Source: Oscillospiraceae bacterium (GTDB lineage Bacteria > Bacillota > Clostridia > Oscillospirales > Acutalibacteraceae). Taken from it: a DNA stretch of 56,405 nucleotides. Every line of letters starts with the position of its first letter. Positions within the stretch are counted from its first letter, which is position 1. A program made the translations under genes and the position numbers. Of the stretch, positions 38,981 to 45,076 are shown piece by piece. Under the pieces are notes generated by a model, which saw nothing but the letters and a program-made list of their open reading frames with translations, was not told the origin of the DNA and did no database searches. The stretch covers positions 1-56,405 of the forward strand of contig CADBBT010000011.1 of the NCBI GenBank assembly GCA_902792985.1, given 5' to 3'.

Positions 38981-39174
38981 CAATTAGAAATTAGGAATTC
39001 GGAATTCGGAATGAAGGTCGCGGGGTATGTAGGCAAGGAAAGAACGCATGCGCCGCGTCGATCAGTGCGGCGATACGGTACGTTCGTCGATTACAATAGA
39101 AGCCGCAGGGCGGCCACTTTTGCTTATCCGTTTCAAAGCCTCCGGCGGGTCCATTCTTTCTCTTTCTCTTGCTA

Positions 39175-39334
39175 GATGCTGAATTGCAATGGGCAGCAGA
39201 CAAAGATTTGCGAGGATGATTTTTGTCAGGCAAGGCAGAGGACGCAGCCAGGCTGACGCCTGGCAAGGACGATAACGCAGCATGACGGAAATCAGACAGC
39301 AAAGATTGTTTGTCTTCCATTGCAATTCAGCATC
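39175..39334. repeat. 160-bp imperfect palindrome
   Basis: Perfect 18-bp ends (39175-39192 and 39317-39334, GATGCTGAATTGCAATGG and its complement) and a central hairpin CCAGGC-TGAC-GCCTGG (39248-39263) share the same centre. Imperfect pairing (AGACAAA, TTTGC, TGATTT blocks) runs between them. It could be a MITE-like unit or a cruciform-forming repeat. Confidence 0.7.
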
Positions 39335-39486
39335 AAAGAAAGAAAAGACGAAGAAAGAGAAAACGCTAAGTTGGGACGTTGACGTGGAACCGAACGAAAT
39401 GGGGAAGGTTCGCGTTACATGCTCTTGATGTTTCGGCTTTTATCTGCGAAAAAAATGTTTTGCAACAAGCACTTTTTGCAACGCTT

Positions 39487-39629
39487 TGCGCACGGCGTTC
39501 GCCGTGCGCAGACCGGCGGCGGGATCGCGCGGCAGATTGCCGCGCGAAAAACGAAGCGATGCTTCGTTTTTGAGCCGTGCCAAGCACGGCTCATCCCGCC
39601 GCCTCGTGCGCGCAGCGAAGCTGCGCGCA
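39487..39629. repeat. Structured element B: hairpin, four-way cloverleaf, hairpin
   Basis: A left hairpin (39487-39510, 10 bp) is followed by an outer stem GGCGGCGGGAT (39515-39525) with ATCCCGCCGCC (39593-39603). Inside it, three hairpins abut with no unpaired base between: 39526-39546 (9 bp), 39547-39571 (11 bp, AAAAACGAAGC/GCTTCGTTTTT) and 39572-39592 (9 bp). A right hairpin follows (39607-39629, 10 bp, TGCGCGCAGC). All stems are perfect. The central hairpin resembles a bidirectional terminator. It lies about 150 nt beyond the 3' end of the alpha/beta hydrolase gene. Confidence 0.85.
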
Positions 39630-39775: not shown

Positions 39776-40450
39776 TCATGCGGTCAAAAACCGCAGCACT
39801 TCTGCGTTGAACGCTTCGGCGTTTTTGGCAGCGATAAAATGGTCGCCGTCAAGCAACACCAGCTTTGCGTGCGGCAAAGAGGACGCGATCAGCTTTGTGT
39901 GCGATGTGCGGATCATGTCGTGCGTGCCGGCGATGACCAGCGTTTCGGCGGTGATGTGCCGCAAATCGGCGGGGTCGATCTGCGGTTCGTTGACCATCAG
40001 CCCGAGCAGCGCGGCTTTTTGCTTTGCCTCTTCAGAGCGGAACAGCTTCGCCGTGCGGTAGCCGAGCACGATGGGGATCTGTACGGAAGGCCGCACGCCT
40101 GCCGGAAACAGGTTCGCGCCGTTGAGCACAAGCTTGTCCACCATCTCCGGATAGCGCAGCGCAAACAGCAGCGCGATGTTGCCGCCGTCGGAAAAGCCGA
40201 GGATGTGCGCTTTTTCAATGCCGCGAGCCTGCAGAAAATCATGCAGATCGTCCGCAAACTGGCGCAGCGTGAACGGCGCTGTGCCGCGCGGCGACTGCCC
40301 GTGTCCGCGTGTGTCCACGGCGAACACATGAAAATGCTTTGCAAAAACGGGCAGTTGCTTTTCAAAATATGCGCTGCTTTCGCCGTTGCCGTGCAGCAAA
40401 ATCAGCGGTTTTCCGCTGCCGCGCGCTTCATAGTGCAGATCGATGTCCAT
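39776..40450 (-). CDS. Alpha/beta hydrolase
   Basis: The 224-residue protein shows a complete alpha/beta hydrolase layout: the oxyanion HGNGES after ILL (about 19-24), DTRGHGQSP (about 45-53), the nucleophile elbow GFSDGG (about 85-90), the acid Asp in AGTHDM (about 175-180) and the catalytic His in DGDHF (about 200-204). There is no signal peptide. AGGAG precedes the ATG. It lies downstream of typA but behind a strong terminator, so it is probably separately expressed. Substrate is unknown; small esters are typical. Confidence 0.9.
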   Translation of the reverse strand: MDIDLHYEARGSGKPLILLHGNGESSAYFEKQLPVFAKHFHVFAVDTRGHGQSPRGTAPFTLRQFADDLHDFLQARGIEKAHILGFSDGGNIALLFALRYPEMVDKLVLNGANLFPAGVRPSVQIPIVLGYRTAKLFRSEEAKQKAALLGLMVNEPQIDPADLRHITAETLVIAGTHDMIRTSHTKLIASSLPHAKLVLLDGDHFIAAKNAEAFNAEVLRFLTA

Positions 40451-44112: not shown

Positions 44113-44239
44113 GAAAGACATCCTTTCGTTTAAAATTCAATGATTCAGACTATTGTATCACGTTTTTAATGGGTTTGCAAGCACAAGCGACATTTATTTT
44201 TGTATGAGAAACAATAATTTTACCTTTTGGATGAAAAAG

Positions 44240-44440
44240 TGCCGGCCTGCAACGCAGGCCGGCAAGGCCCGGCGGCGAAACGCATCGCGCGCCGCGCGAT
44301 GCGATCCCGGGGCGCGGCGGAGCCGCCTTTTTGGAAAACAGAGCTTTTGCCTGCCGCGTCCCGGGTCCGCGCTTCGCTGTGCGAAGCGCGGCTTCGCCGC
44401 CGGGTGGCAGCAGCGCACGGCCAGGGCCGTGCGCTGCTGC
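44240..44440. repeat. Structured element C: hairpin, four-way cloverleaf, hairpin
   Basis: A left hairpin TGCCGGCCTGC and partner (44240-44264, 11 bp) is followed by an outer stem CCCGGCGGCGAA (44268-44279) with TTCGCCGCCGGG (44393-44404). Inside are three helices: 44281-44303 (10 bp), 44306-44365 (13 bp with one G-T) enclosing an A4/T4-flanked loop, and 44367-44391 (11 bp). A right hairpin follows at 44407-44440 (16 bp). The arrangement mirrors the element at 39487-39629 although stems differ in sequence. It lies 34 nt past the pth stop. No gene is supported in 44113-44473. Confidence 0.85.
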
Positions 44441-44473: not shown

Positions 44474-45076
44474 TCAACTGTTATGCCGATTCATCGCCTC
44501 GTCGATGTTGCCGCCGACGATCAGCTCGATCGCGTCGCAGCAGTGCTCTGCGGTGTCGCGCAAGGTGACGAGCTGCTCCTTTGAAAACGGCGTGAGCACC
44601 CAGTCCGCAAGGTCATAATCGGGGTGCGGCTTTGCGCCGATGCCGATCTTGATGCGCGGAAAACCGTCTGCGGAGAGCTGATAAATGATGCTTTTGATCC
44701 CGTTGTGGCCGCCGTCGGTGCCTTTGCGGCGGATGCGCAGCTTGCCCACGTCAAGGCTGATGTCGTCAAAGAGCACGAGAATGTGCTCCGGCGCAATTTT
44801 ATAAAACGCCGCCGCCTCGCGGACAGCTTCGCCGCTGAGGTTCATGAACGTCTGCGGTTTCATCAAAAGGCAGCGTTTGCCGCCGATGCGCACATCGCCG
44901 ATGAGCGCCTTAAATTTGAGCCGGTCGATCTTCACGTTTTTGCTTTGTGCAAAATAATCCAGGCACAAAAAGCCGGCGTTGTGCCTTGTGAATTCATATT
45001 TCTTGCCCGGGTTTCCAAGGCCTACGATCATGAAATCATAGGCGCCGGAGGATGCGGGCTCTTTTTTAAACAGCAC
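44474..45076 (-). CDS. pth: Peptidyl-tRNA hydrolase
   Basis: The 200-residue product starts at GTG 45076. A short extension of about 15 residues precedes the conserved MIVGLGNPGKKYEFTRHNAGF (about 16-36), where the His of RHNAGF is the catalytic base. QTFMNLSGEAV, VLFDDISLDVGKLRIRRKGT and DGGHNGIKSI follow as in bacterial Pth. It frees tRNA from stalled peptidyl-tRNA. The GlmU-like gene lies just upstream on the same strand (27-nt gap). In many Firmicutes glmU, prs and pth are neighbours, which supports the relationship of the pair. Confidence 0.96.
   Translation of the reverse strand: MLFKKEPASSGAYDFMIVGLGNPGKKYEFTRHNAGFLCLDYFAQSKNVKIDRLKFKALIGDVRIGGKRCLLMKPQTFMNLSGEAVREAAAFYKIAPEHILVLFDDISLDVGKLRIRRKGTDGGHNGIKSIIYQLSADGFPRIKIGIGAKPHPDYDLADWVLTPFSKEQLVTLRDTAEHCCDAIELIVGGNIDEAMNRHNS

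Follow-up and report, generated by a model that had tools for sequence, protein, structure and literature searches.

The window, the whole stretch of DNA that was analysed, comprises 56,405 nucleotides of contig CADBBT010000011.1 from an Oscillospiraceae bacterium (assembly GCA_902792985.1). An intergenic palindromic element lies at 39487-39629, 3' of a minus-strand alpha/beta-hydrolase gene. The features of this locus, and of a second one described below, are as follows.

39380-39480, no strand: flanking repeat module M, outside the cloverleaf and common to several copies of the same subfamily
39487-39510, no strand: F1, the 5' flanking hairpin, 10 bp, loop GTTC
39511-39514, no strand: linker, 4 nt
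39515-39525, no strand: 5' strand of the outer stem, GGCGGCGGGAT, 11 bp, partner 39593-39603 (helix 2 of the covariance model, 98.8% of cells paired)
39526-39546, no strand: arm P, 9 bp, loop GAT
39547-39571, no strand: central arm C, 11 bp, A5/T5 base, loop GAT
39572-39592, no strand: arm Q, 9 bp, loop CAA
39593-39603, no strand: 3' strand of the outer stem, ATCCCGCCGCC
39604-39606, no strand: linker, 3 nt
39607-39629, no strand: F2, the 3' flanking hairpin, 10 bp, loop GAA
39776-40450, minus strand: alpha/beta-fold hydrolase gene, its 3' end facing the window copy
44237-44440, minus strand: second family member, of the long-loop class (central loop 30 nt), 3' of pth (44474-45076, minus strand)

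The copy at 39487-39629 (the window copy) has an 11-bp outer stem, enclosing three abutting hairpins, between two 10-bp hairpins, from which it is separated by linkers of 4 nt (5') and 3 nt (3'). A first-pass annotation had described this hairpin / cloverleaf / hairpin plan, and its coordinates and stem lengths held on folding and parsing, the DNA fold moving the arm borders by one pair relative to those listed. The gene-free position that it reported just past a hydrolase 3' end was also confirmed, the gene in question being that at 39776-40450 on the minus strand. The plan had further been judged far more regular than chance, and this was supported by two measures. Folded as DNA, the window copy reached -79.2 kcal/mol, compared with -42.3 kcal/mol (sd 2.95) for shuffled sequences (z -12.5); folded as RNA, it reached -112.1 kcal/mol, compared with -68.5 kcal/mol (sd 3.4; z -12.85), and in both cases 0 of 200 shuffles attained the native value. 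In contigs C5 and C8, of which 296,136 bases were scanned, a strict detector of perfect abutting cloverleaves returned three sites; five Markov shuffles of these stretches yielded none. The remark that the element matched no class the annotation could name was in keeping with a search of Rfam, in which the window's tRNA was the only match at gathering score and the window copy was assigned to no family; with E values up to 1 there were six matches, every one far below the gathering scores.

The element belongs to a dispersed family. In the genome of the window (G000; 2.60 Mb, 90 contigs), blastn with the window copy found 12 other copies on both strands, aligned over 134-153 of the 153 query bases at 83-91% identity, and two further copies cut by contig ends (85% and 96%). 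A covariance model (R1) built from 12 copies gave 100 strand-wise matches in G000 at E values up to 10, the near self-complementarity of the element causing most copies to be matched twice, once per strand; the matches represent at least 50 sites. Since further copies with the cloverleaf topology exist, in this genome and in some of the relatives searched with the model, the topology is not peculiar to one locus. The first-pass annotation had named two companion copies in the window, of which that at 44240 stood (model E value 2.1e-10, fold z -13.1, long-loop central arm). The other, at 2713, was rejected as a family copy: the model did not match it at E values up to 10, and it folds differently, with a z of -3.2. 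The intergenic DNA at 2690-2850 is structured in its own right, containing two perfect hairpins (z -3.2), and lies outside the family.

After both-strand duplicates had been merged, and fragments at contig ends (C31, C63) set aside together with a few matches that were weak or overlapped, 56 G000 sites were carried forward; two of these (C21:24224 and the window's 44240) came from searches other than the main R1 scan, and one (C9:10965) is a weak match that lacks the cloverleaf topology. Two other genomes were used for comparison: the goat-rumen metagenome-assembled genome (MAG) RGIG3704 (G041), with 49 sites carried forward and 48 whose sequence was used, and the Ruminococcaceae MAG RUG11928 (G004), with about 56 sites among the matches listed, of which 24 were fetched and folded. 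When 83 covariance-model sites (56 from G000, 24 from G004 and three others) were folded freely, 78 adopted a three-arm multiloop and five did not; two of the 78 were wrongly parsed because the fold extended into the flanks. The junction contained no unpaired base at 48 of the 75 parsed sites (26/51 in G000 and 22/24 in G004). Both flanking hairpins were recovered by a strict search in 23/51 parsed copies from G000 and 19/24 from G004, and the full plan is therefore absent from some copies. In a full copy, about 143 nt or more in length (~143-200 nt), inverted repeats follow one another as F1, outer stem enclosing P, C and Q, then F2, and a single strand of such a copy can form a four-way junction that is often fully paired.

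Two classes were distinguished by the central arm, with a loop of 3-4 nt or of mostly 30-36 nt. The long-loop class occurs in both G000 and G041 (L075, L111, L118, L123 and others); its central loop, about 33 nt, is kept in length and free to vary in sequence. A role for the 30-36 nt loops as guides was considered and rejected, as among the matches listed those beyond a loop's own locus were only short and chance-like, and no common motif was seen by eye. Unusually long central stems (18-19 bp) were observed at three G000 sites, C12:37146 (L112), C5:117560 (L099) and C37:99 (L120).

The fold is retained while its sequence drifts. From 68 loci an alignment of 126 rows was obtained, representing 70 distinct elements, most of them in both orientations. 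Standard pairs occupied 97.7% of the 7189 cells of these rows, compared with 68.3% in shuffled rows, double changes were found at 59/59 model pairs, and the covariation score was 0.67, compared with 0.05-0.11 when the partners were slid; these pair counts lean towards the model, to whose structure the alignment had been fitted. The free folds of the 83 sites agree with the aligned pair counts. All 59 model pairs covary. Among the 70 elements, arm P occurred in 30 distinct sequences, arm C in 40 and arm Q in 30, with 30-40 for each of the five hairpin arms, and motifs and the arm order F1-P-C-Q-F2 were common to copies despite this drift in the stems. Self-complementarity and arm order are what is conserved; stem sequences drift and vary from copy to copy.

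Covariation as strong as this usually marks a structured RNA, and the RNA fold of the window copy is very stable. It was therefore considered whether each copy is transcribed as a structured non-coding RNA (of riboswitch, sRNA or 3'UTR type) and selected for its fold. Stems selected as RNA usually tolerate G.U pairs. When each of the 70 elements was counted in one orientation, set by model polarity and not by known transcription, 3813 of 3955 cells were Watson-Crick pairs, 46 were G.U, 49 were A.C and 47 were other combinations, so that tolerance of G.U was no greater than that of A.C. At sites between tandem genes, the model polarity ran with and against transcription in ratios of 8:9 (G000), 7:8 (G041) and 4:6 (G004), giving no preferred strand relative to the neighbouring genes. 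Nor was a preference for a replication strand, as judged by local GC skew, detected in the three genomes (same:opposite 19:24, 16:12 and 4:5).

Orthologous copies allowed the changes to be followed directly. At the window locus, G041 carries an orthologous copy with flanks that are 88-91% identical. By eye, at least two stem pairs are altered on both sides, one in arm P and one in arm Q; the central loop GAT is replaced by its exact reverse complement, ATC; and the F2 hairpin has been lost from the G041 copy. The comparison was extended to 31 G000/G041 ortholog pairs, 23 identified by both flanking proteins and eight added by hand from flank alignments, some of these eight resting on one flank with the other cut by a contig end. 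Substitutions per site amounted to 0.067 in stems and 0.32 in unpaired bases. Double changes that remained Watson-Crick were seen at 56 of 1692 pairs, compared with 2.6 expected by chance, while non-pairing double changes were seen at nine; there were 98 single-sided changes (21 G.U, 26 A.C and 51 other). At least one compensated pair was present in 21/31 orthologous elements.

Of 98 comparable hairpin loops, 40 were the same, nine were exactly inverted, 35 were otherwise changed at equal length and 14 had changed in length, two pairs with inverted cores being aligned directly for these loop counts while the stem counts take the inversion into account; 25 further loops had no comparable partner. 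Exact inversion of nine of the 84 same-length loops exceeded two nulls, one by permutation (mean 1.87, nine reached in 0 of 10,000) and one by substitution (mean 0.95, at most 5 in 2000). In two of the nine (C46 and C5:117560) the stems differ too. Overall, changed loops showed no shift towards the reverse complement (18 vs 21, P 0.45). At C5:50691 the whole core is inverted in place relative to C46:5365 of G041, between collinear flanking genes, with an alignment score of 56 when compared directly and 191 when inverted. A second core, C5:19197, is probably inverted in place as well: its scores were 73 direct and 87 inverted, and the arms match by eye, although identity over the whole region was no better inverted.

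The equal rarity of G.U and A.C pairs, a polarity that is blind to transcription, the compensatory changes and the inverted loops and core are all strand-symmetric, and the maintenance of the stems therefore looks like a process acting on DNA rather than on one RNA. With G.U no commoner than A.C in either count (46 vs 49 in the family, 21 vs 26 in the orthologs), one whole core and some loops inverted, no strand preference relative to genes and no Rfam match, a structured RNA is considered very unlikely. RNA-style covariation, even at 59/59 pairs, need not imply a functional RNA.

The likeliest means of upkeep may be sought among processes that copy one arm of a hairpin from the other. Template switching in replication gives double changes and rare loop inversions in rRNA hairpins, according to one study (PMC8794818). 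The compensatory double changes (56 vs 2.6) and the nine loop inversions described here resemble these products. The present hairpins differ from those of that study in forming a repeat family, in which a whole multi-arm core has been inverted, and in the distribution of their changes: clustering of compensatory changes is significant in the rRNA hairpins (PMC8794818), but compensated pairs were not significantly clustered within stems here (nine stems with two or more, compared with 6.8 expected; P 0.19), although clusters would be expected from template switches that copy several bases at once. A strand-symmetric process at the DNA level, most likely template switching in replication and/or cruciform processing, would keep the stems perfect by transferring a change in one arm to the other, and would now and then flip a loop or a whole core in place. 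Cutting and rejoining of a cruciform could yield both the double changes and the inversions, and the two processes would be indistinguishable in these comparisons.

A different emphasis would place selection on the junction itself. The DNA would be selected for a four-way (Holliday-like) junction, and a structure-specific protein (a resolvase, an HUH nuclease or a junction binder) would recognise, flip and spread the cloverleaf as it is extruded at a supercoiled convergent gap; we regard this as a possibility, but a rather doubtful one. In the inverted terminal repeat of AAV and in other folded HUH substrates, an outer stem likewise surrounds abutting hairpins. The element described here differs from the AAV repeat in having three internal arms and in being chromosomal and multi-copy, and the pattern of one arm plus the outer stem is absent from viral contigs, for which reason a viral origin was rejected.

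The position of the copies relative to genes was examined with gene calls from a purpose-made hexamer scorer, not a published gene finder. Of 52 G000 copies with two called neighbours, 35 lie in convergent gaps, 17 in tandem gaps and none in divergent gaps, the 35 including the window copy, which has a doubtful 159-bp ORF on its left and a G041 ortholog that was counted as tandem. The background, G000 gaps of more than 150 nt including those that contain copies (n=108), comprised 19 convergent, 61 tandem and 28 divergent gaps, so that convergent gaps are in excess among the copies (P 1e-9) and divergent gaps are lacking (P 8e-6). Similar distributions were found in G041 (22 convergent, 15 tandem, 1 divergent; n=38) and G004 (13, 10 and 1; n=24).

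The first-pass annotation had likened the A5/T5-flanked central hairpin to a bidirectional terminator, and as a motif the likeness is strengthened by the rest of the family. A base with at least three A's on the 5' side and at least three T's on the 3' side was found in 48/70 C arms, compared with 0/65 for F1, 0/70 for P, 3/70 for Q and 0/63 for F2, making it almost specific to the central arm of an element that sits at gene 3' ends. The 22/70 C arms that failed this test include the window's second copy, and in a few the A-run is shifted. Such a base is what a bidirectional intrinsic terminator needs, and the C arm may accordingly be a candidate for one. An ordinary intrinsic terminator is a GC-rich hairpin followed by a T-run, whereas the T-run of the C arm (48/70) is paired with the A-run; the window element was not called by a standard terminator scan, we suspect because its T's are paired with A's. 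The arm also resembles a bidirectional intrinsic terminator in its A-run/hairpin/T-run layout and its frequent location in convergent gaps, but differs in being part of a multi-hairpin repeat with conserved arm order and in having, in some copies, a central loop of 30-36 nt. Strict terminators were found at 15/90, 15/69 and 3/36 of the 3' sides, compared with 4/101 control ends, and at 0/18, 2/17 and 0/12 of the 5' sides. No targeting of a standing terminator beside each copy is claimed from these counts, because the test window overlaps the element's own T's.

These observations could be explained if the copies were elaborate bidirectional terminators that had been selected independently at convergent gene ends, with no spread of a repeat. 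Their location at 3' ends and the near confinement of the A/T base to the central arm are as expected for such terminators, as is the retention of position in G041 (31 pairs) and at four flank-orthologous positions shared by G000 and G004. However, arm sequences and arm order are common to unrelated loci, each lineage contains similar subfamily copies, and two flanking hairpins and two GC-rich arms would be superfluous to termination. Moreover, only three of 34 congeners are loaded with the element, though all need terminators. Independent selection is consequently held to be unlikely. Read as a spreading repeat, the copies persist almost only at gene 3' ends, as their positions show. Bidirectional intrinsic termination could there be a role of the central A-run/T-run arm, and protection of mRNA 3' ends a role of the flanking hairpins; the repeat would be tolerated, and might be of use, at these sites.

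The distribution of the family was examined by searching the 34 congeners, G000 included, with R1 (cut-off E 0.01 in one search round and 0.001 in the other). Three genomes were loaded (G000, G041 and G004), three contained one or two matches (G002, best E 6e-10; G019, 3e-10; G046, 1.6e-4) and 28 contained none; a genome of another family gave one match (E 0.0025). The hydrolase protein of G000 is 92% identical to that of G041 and 80% identical to that of G004, the next relatives being at 68%. The loaded genomes are therefore the closest by this protein, and from these searches the family looks like a trait of one clade of Clostridia. The pattern of one arm plus the outer stem was found in only two species of GTDB r220, those of RUG11928 and RGIG3704, the records of the window's own genome possibly having been excluded. 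A search of 196 further genomes of the order was negative, but weakly so, because only 15 candidates were scored per genome and merely 14 matches were recovered in G000 itself.

For 16 of the 17 G004 copies of the AAAACRAAGC subfamily, the most similar copy is another from G004, and the positional ortholog of the window copy is closer to some other copy than to the window copy itself. Copies therefore appear to multiply or to be homogenised within lineages. Between G000 and G004, both neighbours are in common at four of the 24 G004 sites fetched, with 70-81% identity over aligned columns.

Many of the copies are located at contig ends (C31, C66, C19, C24, C17, C29, C58, C90 and C7 of G041; C31, C63 and C46 of G000); the repeats are thus a probable cause of breaks in the assemblies, and the copy numbers given are minimum values. 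Such clustering at contig ends, and the fact that at least G041 and G004 are MAGs, could point to an artefact of assembly or binning. Yet the same family is present in separate assemblies of different accession series, with orthologous flanks that are ~83-98% identical, and an artefact is extremely improbable.

Among known repeats, the closest comparison is with REPs, which are dispersed extragenic palindromes often located between convergent genes (PMC1525189) and whose families comprise tens to thousands of units (PMC3733652). The element resembles REPs and BIMEs in being multi-copy and extragenic and in preferring 3' ends and convergent gaps. A REP or BIME, however, is a short (21-65 nt) palindrome of conserved sequence, whereas the present unit is ~143-200 nt, with five hairpins and an outer stem that form a four-way junction, and each of its hairpin arms occurs in 30-40 distinct sequences (n=70). 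The palindromes of REPs, BIMEs and REPINs are tagged with GTAG/CGTC, and some are accompanied by RAYT transposases; here that tag or its complement was found within 6 nt of the foot of only 1/109 flank hairpins (one GACG). As both the short conserved sequence and the tag are missing, the element was not classed as a REP. It also occurs in Clostridia, and neither 'clostridi' nor 'firmicutes' appears in the main text of PMC3733652.

A REP/RAYT-type system, in which an IS200/IS605-like tyrosine (Y1) transposase mobilises folded single strands, would suit the architecture, and the position at 3' ends and in convergent gaps is typical of REPs (PMC1525189). Y1_Tnp matches are indeed present in all three loaded genomes, weakly in G041. 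They are also present in 21/34 congeners, most of which lack the repeats, and Y1_Tnp (RAYT) was rejected as the cause of the distribution since it shows no correlation with repeat load. Together with the seven tested neighbouring proteins, all of them ordinary enzymes, the near absence of the tag (no GTAG or CGTC) and stems whose sequence is not kept, this makes such a system distinctly unlikely. No mobiliser was found among the candidates examined (Y1_Tnp and the seven neighbouring proteins), and the proposal that copies form the ends of a composite transposon was rejected because the seven proteins beside or between them are ordinary enzymes.

MITEs are characterised by terminal inverted repeats, target-site duplication and clean empty sites. 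The ends of the copies resemble inverted repeats by eye, but neither a target-site duplication nor a clean empty site was seen at the one locus compared in full for presence and absence (G041 C39), where the difference is ~860 bp of mixed repeats and not the element alone. Mobile double-hairpin elements (DHE) of fungal and algal mitochondria are GC-rich mobile hairpin modules in intergenic DNA; the present element differs in belonging to a bacterial chromosome, in placing a three-arm cloverleaf between two hairpins and in lying at gene 3' ends.

The explanation that we favour, and judge moderately probable, is that the family is a dispersed non-coding REP/BIME-like repeat with a four-way plan, kept up symmetrically on both strands at the level of DNA, persisting at gene 3' ends and possibly acting as a terminator. 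Its copies would multiply or be homogenised in each lineage as a non-autonomous repeat served by a putative mobiliser. On the best reading, the four-way architecture is new for REP/BIME-like palindromic repeats. No description of the element was found among the papers listed by searches of the open-access PMC literature, most subscription papers being outside that coverage, and the main text of a recent survey that covered the perfect inverted repeats of 118,019 genomes (PMC13155455) contains neither 'clover' nor 'multi-branch'. Three related species, each with dozens of copies in its genome, provide a natural set in which a fold is kept while its letters drift and in which strand-symmetric mismatches and in-place inversions are recorded. 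Two questions can thereby be put to natural data: whether template switching or cruciform resolution, as opposed to selection, keeps inverted repeats perfect, and whether DNA able to form junctions serves a function where convergent genes end.

The DNA around the copies is itself rich in repeats. The gap occupied by G041:C39:19657 comprises ~990 bp of mixed repeats, compared with ~129 bp for the same intergenic gap in G000 C8 (L104); the intergenic DNA of the clade therefore seems to be a fast-changing repeat mosaic. Module M (~75-100 bp) adjoins several copies (at 39380-39480 in the window, and at L002, L004, L005, L003 and L009), either on the left side or inverted on the right, and L001 and L005 have 518 bp in common at 86%. 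Within the window, the 50-nt segments 39154-39203 and 39306-39355 are imperfect inverted repeats of each other (74%) with ~100 nt between them, an arrangement that resembles an insertion into a pyrimidine-rich palindrome; the same palindrome is unbroken in L004.
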